DNA from: Leifsonia sp. Leaf264
GTDB taxonomy: Bacteria; Actinomycetota; Actinomycetes; Actinomycetales; Microbacteriaceae
Direction of reading: 5' to 3'
Assembly: GCF_001422325.1 (NCBI RefSeq)
Contig: NZ_LMMR01000011.1
Coordinates: 1 to 64,000, forward strand
Length of the DNA stretch: 64,000 bases
Of this stretch, positions 35,939 through 41,652 are shown one piece after another (positions within the stretch are counted from its first letter, which is position 1; every line of letters begins with the position of its first letter). Both the position numbers and the translations under genes were made by a program. The notes under the pieces are model-generated. The model had not been told where the DNA came from. It searched no databases and saw nothing but the letters and a program-made list of their open reading frames with translations.

Positions 35939-37171
35939 TCAGCGATCCCGAACGGGGATGCGCACTGTGATGCTGGCGCCGCCGCCCGGTGAGGTGGCGG
36001 CAATCGCGACGGATCCACCGTGACGGCTGGCGACATCGGAGACGAGAGCCAGGCCCAGCCCGTAGTGACGCTGTCCGGTCGGGTCGGTGTCGATGGGGCG
36101 CGAGGTGGCGAATCGCTCGAAGGCGCGGCCGGCCAACTCCGGGGGAAATCCCGGGCCGTCGTCCGCGACGGTCACGACGGCCTCCTTTCCGGATGTTGTC
36201 GCCGTGATCGTCACCCGGCGGCGCGCGTGGTCGAGAGCGTTGGCCAGCAGTGCGACGAGCATGCGCTGAAGTGCTGCCGGGGCGCCTGAGATCGGGAGGG
36301 GTGCTGCATCCGTGACATCGAGCTCGATGCCCCGGTCCGATGCCTCCGTGGTGAACGTGGCGGCAACCTCCCGGATGCTCGCAGTCAGGTCGATGTCCTC
36401 GAAGTTCGTCACCTCACGCGGATCGGCGGCGATGAGAAGGTCCTCGAGGGTGGCTGTGAGGTCACGTGCGTCCTGCACGATCTCGTCGAGGCCCGTCCCC
36501 AGCGCGCCGCTCTCCTCGGCGAGCGGCACGCGGCGCCTCAACAGTTGCGCCCGGGTGCTGAGCAGGGTGAGGGGCGTGCGCAGCTCGTGGCTGGCGTCGG
36601 CGACGAATCGGCGCTGAAGGGAGAGTGCGTCGGCGAGCGGACGGATGGCGCGTCGGGCCATCCACGTGGCTGCGACAGCACTCACCACGAGCGCTGCCAC
36701 TCCGGCGGCGACCAATGCGGTGAGGAGGCGTGACAGCTCTTCGCGGGCTTCCTGTTCGTCGACGGCCACCTGCACCACGTGCCCGTGTTCAAGAGACGTG
36801 AGCACGCGGAAGGTATGTCCATCGGCGGACACCTCTGAGCTGAGCGCCTGGCCGCTCGCACCCACCTGGGCGAGCGCGGCCGTGTCGGGTAGCCCCGTTG
36901 GCATCCCTCGGGACGATCGAGTGGGGTCACCGTCGTCGTCGATGATCGTCACCCACACTCCTGCTGGAAGGTCACGCGGCGAGTCGACCTGGGCGGCGTC
37001 GCGCAGGGTGCGGTCGAGAGTCTCGTTGGCGCTGCGGCTCACGAGGCCGTACACCAGGGCGCCTAGCAGCAGGAAGAGCACACCGATGAGAGCGGTGAAC
37101 TGCAGCGTGAGTCGGCGCACAGCCCGCCGCATCTCTCGATCGTCGGCCGTGTTCCTCGCTGGCCCCGTCAT
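35939..37171 (-). CDS. Sensor histidine kinase
   Basis: The 410-residue membrane kinase has two helices (about 21-44 and 150-172) that bracket an extracytoplasmic sensor region of about 105 residues. The cytoplasmic part has a short HAMP-like linker, HisKA with the phospho-acceptor His195 in DASHELRTPLTLL, and HATPase with LLANALDHARRR, DDGPGFPPELAGRAFERF and HYGLGLALVSDVASRHGG. It overlaps the response regulator by four bases (ATGA). Genomic context, downstream of the flavinyl-transfer genes, suggests it reports redox or metal state; the signal is not known. Confidence 0.94.
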   Translation of the reverse strand: MTGPARNTADDREMRRAVRRLTLQFTALIGVLFLLLGALVYGLVSRSANETLDRTLRDAAQVDSPRDLPAGVWVTIIDDDGDPTRSSRGMPTGLPDTAALAQVGASGQALSSEVSADGHTFRVLTSLEHGHVVQVAVDEQEAREELSRLLTALVAAGVAALVVSAVAATWMARRAIRPLADALSLQRRFVADASHELRTPLTLLSTRAQLLRRRVPLAEESGALGTGLDEIVQDARDLTATLEDLLIAADPREVTNFEDIDLTASIREVAATFTTEASDRGIELDVTDAAPLPISGAPAALQRMLVALLANALDHARRRVTITATTSGKEAVVTVADDGPGFPPELAGRAFERFATSRPIDTDPTGQRHYGLGLALVSDVASRHGGSVAIAATSPGGGASITVRIPVRDR

Positions 37172-37836
37172 CGCTGGACCCCGATGCGATAGCCGATGCC
37201 GCGCACCGTGAGGATCACGCCGCGACCGAGTTTGCGCCGCAGATAGTGCACGTAGGTGTCGACGACACCGAGGTCGTCAGCATCGGGGAAGACCTCGTCC
37301 AGCAGGTCGGCTCGCTCGAACACCTGGTTCGGCCGTCGCGCGAGCTTCTCGAGCAGGTCGCTCTCGCGCTCCGAGAGCATGATGCTCCCCGCTCCGTCGA
37401 GGGTCACGAGGCGGCTGTCGGCGTCGAATCGCCCACCGGGAACGGGGAGAACGGGGGAGGTCGGTGCGCGACGCCGCAGCAGGGCCCGGATCCGGGCGAG
37501 GAGCTCGCCGATGTCGAAGGGCTTGGACAGGTAGTCCTCGGCACCGCGGTCGAGCCCTTCGACGCGATCCGCCGGATTTCCGAGGGCGGAGAGGACCAGC
37601 GCTGGTGTCGCGACGCCCCGAGCGCGGAGCTTGTCGAGCACGTCGAGGCCCTCGATCACCGGGAGCCCCCGGTCGAGCAGGAGGAGGTCGAAGCTGGAGG
37701 TGAGTCCTTCGTGCAGCGCTCGCTGTCCGTCTCGGGCGATGACGACGGCGTATCCCTCACCCTCCAGCAACTCACCGAGCATTCCGGCGAGACGACCGTC
37801 GTCCTCCACCACCAGGATGCGCGCGTGCTCGGTCAT
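37168..37836 (-). CDS. OmpR/PhoB-family response regulator
   Basis: The 222-residue protein has a receiver domain with the acidic pair Glu11-Asp12/13, phospho-acceptor Asp55 in LLLLDRGLP and Lys in YLSKPF, followed by a winged-helix domain (LSERESDLLEKLARRPNQVFERADLLDEVF, VDTYVHYLRRKLGRG). It is transcribed with the kinase. The start ATG 37836 has no ribosome-binding site but a TAGACT box exactly six bases upstream; TAG is the stop of apbE. The regulator may therefore be expressed apart from the redox genes. Confidence 0.95.
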   Translation of the reverse strand: MTEHARILVVEDDGRLAGMLGELLEGEGYAVVIARDGQRALHEGLTSSFDLLLLDRGLPVIEGLDVLDKLRARGVATPALVLSALGNPADRVEGLDRGAEDYLSKPFDIGELLARIRALLRRRAPTSPVLPVPGGRFDADSRLVTLDGAGSIMLSERESDLLEKLARRPNQVFERADLLDEVFPDADDLGVVDTYVHYLRRKLGRGVILTVRGIGYRIGVQR

Positions 37837-37842
37837 GCTCGA

Positions 37843-37848
37843 AGTCTA
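37843..37848 (-). promoter_or_regulatory. -10 box TAGACT overlapping the apbE stop codon
   Basis: Minus-strand TAGACT, six bases before the response-regulator ATG; its TAG is the apbE stop. A clear case of the fused stop/-10 arrangement. Confidence 0.6.
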
Positions 37849-38598
37849 GGCAGCGTGCTGCGTGATCAGACCGCGCAGCCGCGGGGTGACCTCGACGACG
37901 CCATCCAGGTCGACGATCAGCACGTCGACATCCCAGCTATCGGTAGCGGCATCGCGGCTTGCACGCCCGCCCGAGAGGATCGCAGTGGCGAGCACATCGG
38001 CCGTCACGATGTCGGATGCGACGACTGTGACCTGACGGAAGTCGGCGAGGCCCTGACGCCAGATGTGTTCACCGCGCTCGGCGGTGCCCGAGGTGGCGAT
38101 GGCCGGCCGCTGCGGGTCGAGCGGGACGGTGCAGAGCAGCGCCCCACGGTCGTCCGGATCGAGGACGCCGACAGTCCACGCCTGCCCGGCCGCATCCGCA
38201 TGCCCGATGACGACACCGTCGCCACCGATGGAGACGAGCGCATCGGCGATGCCGGCACCCTGCACGAGGTCGAGTGCGCACTGGATGGCCTGCGCCTTGA
38301 CGATGCCGGAGAGGTCGATGACGCCGTCCGGGCGATGAGGGTCGAAGGTGCCGTTGGTGGCGAGTTTCCAGTCGATGGCTGCGGCATAGGACGACAGGAA
38401 TTCGGGCGACGCCTTCGTCATGGCCGATTCTCGGCTGGCAATGCGGCTGATCTCGCTGTTCGGTCGATACAGACTGAATCGGGCCTCGACCTCGTCGAAG
38501 GCGGCGTGGATGGTGGGGAGCAGCGCAGCATCCGGCGGACCGGCTGCGAACGCCAGGCTCGCAACGGTCCCCATGGTCTCGAAGTGCTCGCGATGCAT
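37846..38598 (-). CDS. apbE: FAD:protein FMN transferase (ApbE)
   Basis: Covalently attaches FMN from FAD to a Thr or Ser of partner proteins. The 250-residue protein starts HFETMGTVASLAF, has LYRPNSEISRI, the DLSGIVKAQAIQCALD helix, the conserved ALVSIGGDGVV glycine loop and the C-terminal TSGTAERGEHI and TVVASDIVTADVLATAIL, the Mg-binding region. It lacks a lipobox or signal peptide, so the enzyme appears cytoplasmic or uses another export route. The target is almost certainly the FMN-binding protein one base upstream in the operon. Confidence 0.93.
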   Translation of the reverse strand: MHREHFETMGTVASLAFAAGPPDAALLPTIHAAFDEVEARFSLYRPNSEISRIASRESAMTKASPEFLSSYAAAIDWKLATNGTFDPHRPDGVIDLSGIVKAQAIQCALDLVQGAGIADALVSIGGDGVVIGHADAAGQAWTVGVLDPDDRGALLCTVPLDPQRPAIATSGTAERGEHIWRQGLADFRQVTVVASDIVTADVLATAILSGGRASRDAATDSWDVDVLIVDLDGVVEVTPRLRGLITQHAA

Positions 38599-38599
38599 G

Positions 38600-39163
38600 T
38601 CAGAGCCCGGCCTGATCGATCGCCGACTGCAGGGACGTGAGATACGCCTCGCTGGTGTAGGTGGCACCTGACACCATCTGCACGGAGGCCGACTGCGCCG
38701 AGAGCACTTCCTCGCGCAGCACAGGGGCGGCGCTATTGCTGATCTGCACGGAGCGGCCATCGGCATCCGTGAGGTGCAGTGCCTCGACGTCGGTGATGGA
38801 GCCATCAGCAACGATGATCTGCACCTGCACATCGCCGAAACGGGTGCTCGCCACCGCTCCTGTGAAGGTTCCGGATGGCCCAGCCGCGGCGGGTGCCTGG
38901 GCGCTCGTGCCCGTGTCGGTGCCGATGCCCGTGTCGGACGTGCCCCCGGCGGAGCTTGCCGAGCCCGTGCTCGTCGAGGCATCCGAGGTGCCGGTCGTGG
39001 CTGAGCCTTCGGAGCCGCCGGTCGTCCCGGCAGGGGTCGTGCCGCTCGCGGTGGGCGCGGCCAGCCCCGGGGACCCGACATGGGCCTGCGCTCCCATCTG
39101 CCAACTGATGACCAGGACGGCCGATGCCGACAGGATGCTCGCCGCTGCTGCTCGTCTTCTCAC
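38600..39163 (-). CDS. Exported FMN-binding domain protein with flavinylation motif
   Basis: The 187-residue protein begins with a positively charged N-terminus and hydrophobic segment (residues 1-27), probably a signal peptide or anchor. A Ser/Thr/Gly/Ala-rich linker (about 30-95) leads to an FMN_bind domain (GTFTGAVASTRFGDVQVQII ... TYTSEAYLTSLQSAI). The motif SGAT with Thr168 is the consensus site for covalent FMN. It lies between the ferric-reductase-like gene (GTGA overlap) and apbE. It is expected to carry electrons outside the membrane. Confidence 0.92.
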   Translation of the reverse strand: MRRRAAAASILSASAVLVISWQMGAQAHVGSPGLAAPTASGTTPAGTTGGSEGSATTGTSDASTSTGSASSAGGTSDTGIGTDTGTSAQAPAAAGPSGTFTGAVASTRFGDVQVQIIVADGSITDVEALHLTDADGRSVQISNSAAPVLREEVLSAQSASVQMVSGATYTSEAYLTSLQSAIDQAGL

Positions 39164-40569
39164 CAGTCGAACCTCTCCACGTGGATCTGCTCATCGCGCA
39201 GGCCGGCGGCCTGGGCATCCGCGACCACCAGGTCCGACCACGCCTGCGGTCCGCAGATGTAGAGGTCGGAGCTGGCGAGGTCGGGGAACGTACTGCCGAG
39301 GGTGACACCGCGCCGATAGTCGTCGGCCGACATCCAGGTGTCGAGGTTCGCGGGTCGACGACCTGTCATCGTGTACGCCTGTCCACGCGATGCGGTGGCC
39401 AACGCGATCGTCTCGTCCCAGAGGTAGTTCTGGTTCTCATCCGTTCCCCGAAGCAGCAGGGTCGCCTCTCCGGGCGCCAGGCTGGAATGCTCGAGGAGGG
39501 CGCGTGCTGGTGTGACGCCGATGCCGGCCGCGATGATCGCCAGGTGCGGTGATGTTCTGGTGACATCGGTGAACACACCGTACGGACCCTCGATCGAGAC
39601 CGGAGTTCCGGGCCGCAACCGCGAGAGACGCGCTGTTCCGGCGCCGAGTTCCCGCACGGTGATGCGTGCCGAGGTGTCGGTGGGTACAGCGGAGAAGGAG
39701 ATCGGGTGAGCGTGCCACCACGTGCCAGCGCTCCAGAACCGCCAGATGGCGTACTGGCCGCCGTTGATGCGGAGGTGGTCGAGGTCGCGTCCGGTCAGGT
39801 GGATGGAGTAGACGCCGGTGGCGACGTTCTCGATCCCGGCTACCCGGATGCCGTGCCTGAACGAGCGCACGATCGGCACCGCGAAGCGGAAGCACGCGAC
39901 GGCCGCGAAGGCCAGGACGTAGAGGATGATCCAGTAGGTGCGCTGCCAGGTTCCCTCGGCGAGCACACCGCCCACGCTCAACTGGTGCGGAACAGCCACC
40001 AGCACGGCGGCGTAGCTCAGCAGGTGGATGGCATGCCAGGCCTCGTAGGGGAAGCGGCGTCGCACCGCGACGAGCGAGCTCACGACGACGACGATCAGCA
40101 GTCCGAGACCGAGGTAGGCGAAAGCCATGTCGGGCGTGGTGAACATCGTCACAGTCTCGACGACCACGCTCTGTCCGTCTGCCATGGCCCACCCCACGGT
40201 GAGAAGGGCGAAGTGTGCGAGCAGGAGGTAGAGCGCTGGCTTGCCCAAGCGTCGATGGAAAGCCATCGCCACGTCCTGTCCGACTGCGCGGTCGATGATC
40301 GGGATGCGGGCGGCGATGAGCAGCATCACCAGGATCAGGTTCGTGCCGATGAGGCCGGCCGTGATGCCCACGGCGTCGATGAGGCTCGAGGGGCTCGCAA
40401 CCGAGCTCAGCCCTCCATAGGCGAGGTAGAGGCCGACGGCGAGCGCCACCGAGGTCCAGAATGCGATGAGCAGCAGATCGCCGGAGCGCAGTCTCCTGCG
40501 CGTGCGGACACGGCGGTCCCGATCGCGGGTGGGGTTCCACCGAGTGGTCGCCCGGGTGGTGGTGGTCAT
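39160..40569 (-). CDS. Ferric-reductase-like membrane flavoprotein with NAD(P)H:FAD reductase domain
   Basis: The 469-residue protein starts at ATG 40569 (GGAGAGGG upstream). The N-terminal 230 residues form about six helices of the ferric reductase type, with His-containing helices (FHRRLGKPALYLLLAHFALL, AWHAIHLLSYAAVL, AVPHQLS) that can bind two hemes. The C-terminal half is ferredoxin-NADP-reductase-like: FAD loop WHAHPISFSAVP, RPGTPVSIEGPYG, NAD loop IIAAGIGVTPARALLEH and CGP near the end. It should move electrons from cytoplasmic NAD(P)H across the membrane to the flavinylated partner encoded next. Confidence 0.9.
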   Translation of the reverse strand: MTTTTRATTRWNPTRDRDRRVRTRRRLRSGDLLLIAFWTSVALAVGLYLAYGGLSSVASPSSLIDAVGITAGLIGTNLILVMLLIAARIPIIDRAVGQDVAMAFHRRLGKPALYLLLAHFALLTVGWAMADGQSVVVETVTMFTTPDMAFAYLGLGLLIVVVVSSLVAVRRRFPYEAWHAIHLLSYAAVLVAVPHQLSVGGVLAEGTWQRTYWIILYVLAFAAVACFRFAVPIVRSFRHGIRVAGIENVATGVYSIHLTGRDLDHLRINGGQYAIWRFWSAGTWWHAHPISFSAVPTDTSARITVRELGAGTARLSRLRPGTPVSIEGPYGVFTDVTRTSPHLAIIAAGIGVTPARALLEHSSLAPGEATLLLRGTDENQNYLWDETIALATASRGQAYTMTGRRPANLDTWMSADDYRRGVTLGSTFPDLASSDLYICGPQAWSDLVVADAQAAGLRDEQIHVERFDW

Positions 40570-40658
40570 CGTCCCTCTCCTGTCGTCCACCTCAAGGATG
40601 ACCTCCCTTTCTTCCAGCATTCTTAGCCGCAGCTCCGGATGAGTGGTTGAGTGGCCGC

Positions 40659-41393
40659 ATGTCGATCGCACCAGTACCTCCTCACGATCAACACGCAGAC
40701 GAGCCGCACCGGGGAGGGATCGCCCAGCGCCTGAACTGGCTGCGGGCCGGTGTCCTGGGCGCCAACGACGGCATCGTCTCAGTGGCCGCGATCGTCGTCG
40801 GCGTCGCCGGTGCGACCATGGCGAGCGCACCGATCCTCACGGCTGGGATCGCCGGGCTCGTCGGCGGTGCCGTGTCCATGGCGTTGGGGGAGTACGTCTC
40901 GGTGAGCAGCCAGAGCGACAGTGAGAAGGCCCTGATCGAGAAGGAGCGCCGAGAGCTCGAGGACATGCCCGAGCAGGAGCTGGCCGAACTCGCCGGACTG
41001 TACGAGGCGCGCGGCCTGTCAGCGGAGACGGCGAAGCAGGTGGCGGTCGAGCTGACCGCGCATGACGTGCTCGCGGCCCATCTCTCTGCAGAGCTGAACA
41101 TCGATGCCAACGACGTGGTGAGCCCGTGGCACGCCGCCTTCGCGTCGGCTCTCGCCTTCACGCTGGGCGGCATCCTTCCGCTCCTCGCCATTCTCCTTCC
41201 CCCCGAGGGGTGGCGCGTGCCCGTCACATTCGTGGTCGTGCTGGCGGCGTTGGCGCTCACCGGATCGATCGCAGCGAGCATCGGAGGAAGCTCGAGACTG
41301 CGCGCGATGTCGCGTGTCGTCATAGGAGGAGCGATCGCCCTCGTCGCCACCTTCGCCATAGGCGCCCTTCTCGGCACCGCAGGCGTCGTCTGA
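40659..41393 (+). CDS. VIT1/CCC1-family iron/manganese transporter
   Basis: The 244-residue protein has the VIT1 fold: helix 1 begins LRAGVLGANDGIVSVAAIVVGVAGA, then SMALGEYVSVSSQSDSEKALIEKERRELED, a cytoplasmic helical metal-binding insert rich in Glu (about residues 85-135), and three C-terminal helices. Family members export Fe2+ or Mn2+ from the cytosol. The start ATG 40659 is preferred to TTG 40647. It diverges from the ferric-reductase-like gene over 89 bases, so both may respond to metal supply. Confidence 0.92.
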   Translation: MSIAPVPPHDQHADEPHRGGIAQRLNWLRAGVLGANDGIVSVAAIVVGVAGATMASAPILTAGIAGLVGGAVSMALGEYVSVSSQSDSEKALIEKERRELEDMPEQELAELAGLYEARGLSAETAKQVAVELTAHDVLAAHLSAELNIDANDVVSPWHAAFASALAFTLGGILPLLAILLPPEGWRVPVTFVVVLAALALTGSIAASIGGSSRLRAMSRVVIGGAIALVATFAIGALLGTAGVV

Positions 41394-41397
41394 GAAC

Positions 41398-41652
41398 GTG
41401 ATGCACGCGCACGGCTGTACGTCTTCGTCTCGGCTGCTCGATCTCCACGACGTCCTTGTCGCGGCTCGCCTGGTCGGACGGCAGCCCGGTGTCACGGCCA
41501 TCTCGGGATCGGTCTCAGTCGACGAGCTGGTGGAACTCGAGACCATCTTCGCGATCTACGAGAAGGCGCGGTCGATCTCCGTCATCCAGGCCCGTCCATT
41601 CTCAGCACGTGAACTGGAGGACTGGCGCCTGATGGACGAGTGGATCGCCTGA
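41398..41652 (+). CDS. Small unknown protein, 84 aa
   Basis: Unrecognised. The product contains a hydrophobic start and a helical, acidic middle (SVDELVELETIFAIYEKARS), ending DWRLMDEWIA. The start (GTG 41398 or ATG 41401) is four bases after the VIT1-type gene and the ribosome-binding site is weak. GC-rich third positions throughout support coding. Probably cotranscribed with the transporter. Confidence 0.6.
   Translation: MMHAHGCTSSSRLLDLHDVLVAARLVGRQPGVTAISGSVSVDELVELETIFAIYEKARSISVIQARPFSARELEDWRLMDEWIA

Follow-up and report, generated by a model that had tools for sequence, protein, structure and literature searches.

How a set of genes that would carry electrons out of the cell through a covalently bound flavin is controlled, and what this control might reveal about its role, is the question raised by a locus of Leifsonia sp. 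Leaf264 (Actinomycetota; Microbacteriaceae). The locus occupies positions 35939-41393 of the stretch of DNA analysed here, a window of 64,000 nucleotides (assembly GCF_001422325.1, contig NZ_LMMR01000011.1, positions 1 to 64,000 of the forward strand), and carries genes for a membrane reductase, an FMN_bind protein, the flavin transferase ApbE, a two-component pair and, in the opposite direction, a VIT1/CCC1-family transporter. Judging by its genes, this core (VIT1 included) belongs to the published MsrQ-like flavinylation class, and what is new is its regulation, that is, a linked two-component pair with a single predicted operator. Considering the architecture together with this dedicated regulation, we regard the locus as probably encoding an extracytosolic flavin electron-transfer module of the MsrQ-like kind, governed by a private two-component switch.

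Gene organization and relation to known systems

Five genes follow each other on the minus strand with hardly any gaps. The first, for an MsrQ-like/NOX-like membrane reductase (39160-40569; Pfam Ferric_reduct, 3.9e-15), overlaps by 4 base pairs (bp) the gene for a membrane-anchored FMN_bind protein of 187 amino acids with a GTG start and a low-complexity linker (38600-39163; Pfam FMN_bind, 3.3e-8), which is followed after 1 bp by that for ApbE, a short form of 250 amino acids (37846-38598; Pfam ApbE, 4.1e-32, and AlphaFold/Foldseek). After a further 9 bp comes an OmpR/PhoB-type response regulator, here called type A (37168-37836; Pfam Response_reg and Trans_reg_C), whose gene overlaps by 4 bp that of a sensor histidine kinase of 410 amino acids (35939-37171; Pfam HisKA and HATPase_c). 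On the plus strand, beyond a spacer of 89 bp, the gene for a VIT1/CCC1-family Fe/Mn transporter (40659-41393; Pfam VIT1, 2.9e-66) diverges from that of the reductase. Both the compact run of five genes and the divergent transporter had been described in the original prediction, and they are borne out by the gene calls and the Pfam matches.

According to the main text of Meheust et al. (2021; PMC8238504), MsrQ-like flavinylation systems consist of a PF01794 gene near (at most five genes away from) FMN_bind or ApbE genes, form 1797 clusters in 1468 genomes, are broad in Actinobacteria and rare elsewhere, and are called uncharacterised; a NAD-binding domain is found in 1437 of the clusters and VIT1 in 153, and iron uptake was suggested. 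The window shares with this class the PF01794 membrane protein with a putative NAD-binding part, FMN_bind, ApbE and, as in a subset of the clusters, VIT1. By word search, that main text names neither response regulators nor histidine kinases nor sensors and has "two-component" only as part of a reference title; across its text, that of a 2024 preprint from the same group, PMC10979944, and that of the ApbE review PMC12052999, the terms two-component, response regulator and histidine kinase are likewise limited to one reference title. A literature search for a two-component partner of such modules found none among the papers listed, which is weak evidence of absence, as it covered titles and the beginnings of abstracts of open-licence papers only.

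Two sensor pairs beside the same core

ApbE matches were found in 122 of 299 genomes of Microbacteriaceae. The relatives compared here derive from 77 matches outside the window (E-value <= 6.6e-43), of which 58 were fetched, and from G123 (L094), giving 59 loci that are a part of the total; a second locus of the Leaf264 genome was taken in addition to these and the window. Genes for reductase, FMN_bind protein and ApbE occur together and in the same order in all 59, so their association is not due to chance. When the five-gene order singled out in the original prediction was surveyed, the core was thus kept throughout, while a pair of the window's type was present, downstream, in just 11 loci (type A; regulators 67-94% identical to that of the window). 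Another pair lies upstream in 28 loci (type B; regulators 35-45% identical to the window's and non-orthologous), and 20 have neither pair at the two usual places, two of these (L043, L082) having a regulator match further upstream. The type B run, on one strand, is VIT1, regulator, kinase, reductase, FMN_bind and ApbE. VIT1 is linked to 9 of the 11 type A loci (divergent before the reductase in eight and behind ApbE in one), to 19 of the 28 type B loci and to 7 of the 20 loci with neither pair.

In a regulator tree, type A regulators form their own group (12 rows with the window; support 100/100), and so do the 27 of 28 type B regulators included (support 100/99; L075 was left out). The median identity between the two is 41%, against 39% and 38% with the genome's paralogues. 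As the groups are separate and their identity is near the paralogue level, two different sensor pairs are associated with the same core; the placing of both groups relative to the paralogues is unsure because of long branches. Finding two unrelated two-component systems beside the same core suggests a need for the module to respond to the envelope. The kinase comprises an N-terminal helix, a strand-rich domain at about residues 64-140 and a second helix (AlphaFold model of residues 1-187; pLDDT, the predicted local confidence, 78.6), followed by HisKA and HATPase_c, and the strand-rich domain is taken to be extracytosolic. None of the Cys or His residues of the sensor region is invariant or nearly invariant among 12 orthologues, and sensing of thiols or directly of metals through such residues was therefore rejected.

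A single predicted operator

The reductase gene is preceded by CTAAGAAnnCTGGAAGAA in all 12 type A loci, the window included; the match is exact in 11 and has three mismatches in L046, where an exact copy is present elsewhere in the locus. In the window, the predicted operator, CTAAGAATGCTGGAAGAA, lies at 40609-40626 on the minus strand, in the spacer between the divergent VIT1 and reductase genes. It is a direct repeat of AAGAA at 11 bp (AAGAA-n6-AAGAA), and a repeat spacing of 11 bp is that of OmpR/PhoB-type sites. Both the domain architecture of the regulator, a receiver with Trans_reg_C, and its tandem direct-repeat site would fit this class; unlike in other OmpR/PhoB-type systems, the target would be a flavinylation module, apparently the sole target in the genome.

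The exact sequence is absent from all 28 type B and all 20 other loci, and a single one of these 48 (L066) has a copy with up to three mismatches. As the 11 loci were chosen by exact match, the identity of 0.94 inside the site is largely given by construction and is uninformative. What is informative is the low pairwise identity of the flanks (0.28 over the 60 bases before the site, 0.52 over the next 18 and 0.30 beyond), so the site stands out from surroundings that have drifted. The 4.54 Mb genome of the window contains this one site with up to two mismatches, and the same one alone when a relaxed pattern is allowed up to one mismatch, the reversed control giving no match in either search. 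An operator common to type B was also sought, through gapped words in the 28 upstream regions, and was rejected, since no word was shared by more than 4 of them; this was a weak test, the L075 region being overlong.

Because the sensing pair has an apparently single DNA site in the genome, the trigger of the system is directly testable: a dedicated regulator with one predicted site would provide a direct handle, with the operator serving as a reporter for the inducing signal and, hence, for the physiological role.

The regulator and its site in other genomes

GTDB genomes were also searched with the regulator alone; of 313 relatives the 80 best were retained, some genomes being shared with the 59 loci above. 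Of these loci, 79 are labelled as actinobacterial (Microbacteriaceae, Arthrobacter, Pseudonocardia, Amycolatopsis, Kribbella and others), the remaining one coming from an "Acidobacteria" metagenome-assembled genome; a kinase match is present in 79. In the stretch fetched, 63 of the 80 contain a match (E <= 1e-5) to reductase, FMN_bind or ApbE, and 19 contain VIT1; these counts include weak hidden Markov model matches, down to 23 bits, and the FMN_bind matches (40 loci) all exceed 100 bits. For comparison, about 1% of random 12-kb stretches would hold a flavinylation cluster, by our own estimate from two clusters in 4.54 Mb and with no control regulator. The relaxed motif, with up to one mismatch, is found in 36 of the 80 loci, against none in each of three shuffles and two for the reversed pattern, and lies behind the kinase in 19 and before the reductase in 17 (L182 has both). 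L188, one of the loci with the site behind the kinase, has an ApbE gene followed by one for a NuoF-like protein, a further combination among those listed for flavinylation by Meheust et al. (PMC8238504).

Within the 299 family genomes, 21 sites with up to one mismatch were found in 17 genomes, 14 of them exact, and the reversed control matches in 10 genomes. Twelve of the exact copies belong to the type A loci that were fetched; one of these twelve, in G285, is behind the kinase and precedes genes for a small exported-looking protein and a further ApbE. Another exact copy is found in G026, between a DUF2231 gene and a VIT1 gene that adjoins a type A regulator, and the last, again in G285, is beside a DUF389 gene. 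As for sites with one mismatch, that of G155 lies about 400 bp before another ApbE, that of G011 before a DUF2231 gene behind VIT1, that of G205 has a type A regulator on one side and a DUF2231-like gene (judged by eye) on the other, and that of G064 precedes a reductase homologue located behind a type A pair; those of G157, G211 and G270 have no clear neighbour. Additionally, a site with two mismatches precedes a second reductase in G247.

Several observations weigh against a switch reserved for flavinylation modules. In 17 of the 80 regulator loci there is no flavinylation gene in the stretch fetched, and 44 are without the relaxed site. One exact copy of G285 (L128) adjoins a DUF389 gene, with no recognised flavinylation neighbour, and none was recognised at the one-mismatch sites L131, L133 and L135 either. 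As the reversed pattern matches 10 of the 299 genomes, the seven one-mismatch sites are not above the control as a group. Finally, the ten other type A genomes hold 18 sites with up to two mismatches, compared with 7 control matches, and at L123, L127 and L129 such sites have neighbours that match none of the six window proteins.

That 20 of 59 related modules have neither pair at the usual places would be expected if the two-component pair were a passenger that controls unrelated genes. However, the exact operator is confined to type A among the loci fetched and has a single copy in the genome, and retrieval by the regulator alone returned flavinylation genes in 63 of 80 loci, so that we hold this explanation to be very improbable. 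The operator, its single genome site and its recurrence in other actinobacteria also speak against a regulator with cell-wall targets only, which the original prediction had named as an outcome contrary to its own reading.

Two kinds of genes recur beside the site. A DUF2231 membrane protein is encoded next to VIT1 and a type A site at L132:1627-2349 and L124:950-1480, and may belong to the same response. Small exported-looking, low-complexity proteins, with no Pfam match, are encoded directly behind a type A site at L122:1562-1915, where ApbE follows, and at L184:8032-8511; these could possibly be unrecognised partners.

The membrane reductase

The Ferric_reduct membrane domain of the reductase scores 56.4 bits, against a Pfam cut-off of 28, and the FMN_bind and ApbE genes are adjacent. 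His105, His119, His182 and His195 are kept in 58-59 of 60 homologues, in the pattern of a two-haem membrane protein, and two-haem proteins are expected of the MsrQ-like class in the main texts of PMC8238504 and PMC10979944. The protein is more than a flavoprotein, being a predicted two-haem membrane protein as well. Residues G349/G351/P354 and C439-G440-P441 are present in 57-58 of the 60 homologues. Its PDB relatives include flavohaemoproteins and 8qt6. The latter, with related bacterial NADPH oxidase-like entries (which we take to be SpNOX), is homologous to residues 158-364, a region that takes in the FAD part and the last portion of the membrane part; the match to 8qt6 is just 26.5 bits and, unlike 8qt6, the reductase here is operonic with FMN_bind and ApbE. 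In L075 (G241), extra copies of the reductase and FMN_bind genes lie ahead of the usual reductase-FMN_bind-ApbE run.

The FMN_bind protein and the site of flavin loading

The SGAT motif in which the original prediction had placed a flavinylation site spans residues 165-168 of the FMN_bind protein, within SGATYT, so the numbering of Thr168 (codon 38660-38662, minus strand), the predicted flavin attachment residue, is correct, and the position is Thr in 59 of 60 homologues. An N-terminal hydrophobic segment is present in all 60, preceded by at least two basic residues in 55, and the flavin domain should therefore lie outside; this and the lack of an export signal on ApbE were judged by hydropathy (for ApbE also by start codons) rather than by a signal-peptide program. 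A comparable route out of the cell is known in Listeria, where the PplA/FmnB system uses a different electron donor chain. Its flavinylated surface protein moves electrons out according to the main text of PMC12052999, and FmnB is among the structures nearest to the ApbE model; the window protein has no tandem flavin domains.

The ApbE model (AlphaFold; pLDDT 93.4) has V. cholerae ApbE as its best Foldseek match (3.7e-16). Ser170, His178 and Asp201, invariant in 60 of 60 sequences, correspond to Ser241, His257 and Asp285 of that protein when the sequences are compared by eye. The structure alignment used 40 of the 60 rows. The Pfam profile match is split into residues 1-74 and 125-250, with about 50 profile positions missing, a short form also seen in the majority of cluster ApbEs when 30 genomes were searched.

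Where, then, would the flavin be attached? Well-studied ApbEs are periplasmic lipoproteins, and in one case this location was required for function (main text of PMC12052999), which would favour an ApbE that acts outside the cell after leaving it by an unconventional route. The lack of an export signal pointed out for the window ApbE, however, proved general among the relatives examined. Of 60 cluster ApbEs, 58 lack any hydrophobic stretch within the 50 codons that lead up to the MGT motif, and in the two exceptions (L073, L080) no start codon precedes the stretch; five of 59 have an in-frame stop no more than 20 codons away, which leaves no room for a signal. These counts bear on classical export only. 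The genome's other ApbE is unsignalled too and lies beside a lipoprotein-like gene, none of the 32 ApbEs scoring above 100 bits in the 80-locus set passed the hydropathy threshold for a signal-like stretch, and action outside the cell seems unlikely to us. A hidden longer start was rejected, since the 411-amino-acid in-frame open reading frame reads through the FMN_bind gene in another frame.

In 5 of the 30 genomes (G278, G203, G276, G105 and G031) the only ApbE is that of the cluster; elsewhere, 19 of 25 other ApbEs were readable and none of the 19 had a signal-like stretch. Given unsignalled ApbEs, a flavin domain predicted to be outside and genomes with no other ApbE, we lean slightly towards loading of FMN by ApbE in the cytosol, before export of the FMN_bind protein. 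The passages of PMC8238504 on the MsrQ-like class do not discuss unsignalled ApbEs, and one that serves an outside substrate raises the question of how covalent flavins reach the cell surface. Twin-arginine translocation (Tat) was considered as the answer and rejected as a general one: a Tat-like RRx[FLI] start is found in 2 of 60 FMN_bind proteins (L038, L045), and that of the window, MRRRAAAAS, fails the pattern.

VIT1, iron and the role of the module

Iron boxes were scored with the DtxR consensus TTAGGTTAGCCTAACCTAA, which is confirmed in the main text of PMC1382209, requiring at least 12 matches in 19 positions. Such boxes precede 16 of 35 VIT1 genes (L090, the 36th, was masked), as against 0.9 expected from shuffles; DtxR/IdeR-like examples include L094, L087, L085, L070, L067, L064 and L055. 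Before the reductase, 4 of 60 regions have a box where 2.1 would be expected, which is near chance, and two of the four are a spacer shared with VIT1; the counts before FMN_bind (1 of 60) and ApbE (0 of 60) are at chance level. As iron boxes precede many VIT1 genes, a connection with iron is likely in the family. In the window, the VIT1/reductase spacer carries the type A site instead. A small open reading frame of 83 amino acids with no Pfam match (41401-41649, plus strand) lies 7 bp behind the window VIT1 gene.

The module might be an assimilatory ferric reductase that makes Fe2+ outside for import by VIT1, in keeping with the iron boxes before 16 of 35 VIT1 genes. However, known VIT1/CCC1 proteins transport Fe2+ and Mn2+ out of the cytosol, the window VIT1 is without an iron box and the upstream regions of the reductases are near chance. 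Uptake was proposed with the 153 VIT1-containing MsrQ-like clusters (main text of PMC8238504), whereas the VIT-like part of MbfA, whose model the window VIT1 matches weakly (31.1 bits, cut-off 450), belongs to an efflux protein (main text of PMC7762939). Import of iron by VIT1 is doubtful, its relatives being proteins of efflux or of the vacuole, and an assimilatory role appears rather unlikely.

Somewhat easier to accept, if short of an even chance, is a defence of the envelope against redox or metal stress, in which the exported reductant would serve to quench oxidants, quinones or envelope proteins that have become oxidised, with VIT1 expelling excess Fe2+ and Mn2+ as part of that response. 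The divergent spacer with one operator, shared by reductase and VIT1, and the flavohaemoproteins among the PDB relatives of the reductase agree with this, as does the VIT1-related MbfA, a protein that the main text of PMC7762939 treats in connection with iron efflux and oxidative stress. Nevertheless, Pfam recognised no oxidant-repair enzyme among the six genes, and the kinase sensor, with no invariant Cys or His, shows no thiol switch. Of the regulated metal reduction or redox defence of the original prediction, the regulation is supported (operator, single site and recurrence); metal reduction or redox defence is a candidate function, and the link to metal consists of VIT1 linkage and the iron boxes of relatives.

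For the preferred reading, a flavin electron-transfer module under a private switch, we infer a working model from gene content and order, active-site residues, topology signals and the occurrence and uniqueness of the site, all read from the DNA. Cytosolic NAD(P)H would reduce FAD in the C-terminal part of the reductase, and electrons would cross the membrane over two b-haems at His105/119/182/195 to FMN held covalently on Thr168 of the anchored FMN_bind protein, which would pass them to an outside acceptor, ferric iron being a plausible candidate. ApbE would attach the FMN, most likely in the cytosol before its substrate is translocated. The kinase would sense a condition outside the cell, and the regulator would bind AAGAA-n6-AAGAA at 40609-40626, the only recognisable site in the genome, and through it exert control over the reductase operon, and probably over the divergent VIT1 as well.

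On the side of the module itself, three observations tell against this model. The C-terminal FAD_binding_8 and NAD_binding_1 domains of the reductase are below the Pfam cut-offs (PF00175, 17.6 bits against 22; a phmmer match to flavohaemoprotein reaches 4.3e-6). Iron-box control of the window VIT1 had to be discarded, the best box (9 of 19) being at chance level. The FMN_bind protein has Gln162 in place of the leading Asp of the published motif, D-x-x-[S/T]-G-A-[S/T], which the main text of PMC12052999 calls strictly conserved while reporting only minor effects of its change to Ala; among the 60 homologues, this column holds Gln in 25, Ser in 14, Ala in 9, Asp in 7, Asn in 3, Thr in 1 and Lys in 1. 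A broader proposal, that actinomycetes reverse the textbook order, loading FMN in the cytosol and then exporting, and have dedicated a two-component clade to envelope-watching control of flavin electron-export modules through one operator, is a tentative one that we doubt more than we believe.

A second cluster in the same genome

A second flavinylation-like cluster of the genome (L035:5264-8113; G000, contig C4) lies on a different contig from the module of the window and has no type A site. By eye, one of its genes is lipoprotein-like and has a flavinylation-like motif, DVSKVAGSS, with no Pfam match; the others encode an ApbE that lacks a signal peptide and a membrane protein whose C-terminal part is a NAD_binding_1 domain. 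Its likeness to NqrB/RnfD was judged by eye only, because neither the membrane part nor the lipoprotein has a Pfam match; in gene content (lipoprotein-like gene, ApbE and NAD_binding_1 membrane protein), it resembles the NQR/RNF-like system of the main text of PMC8238504.

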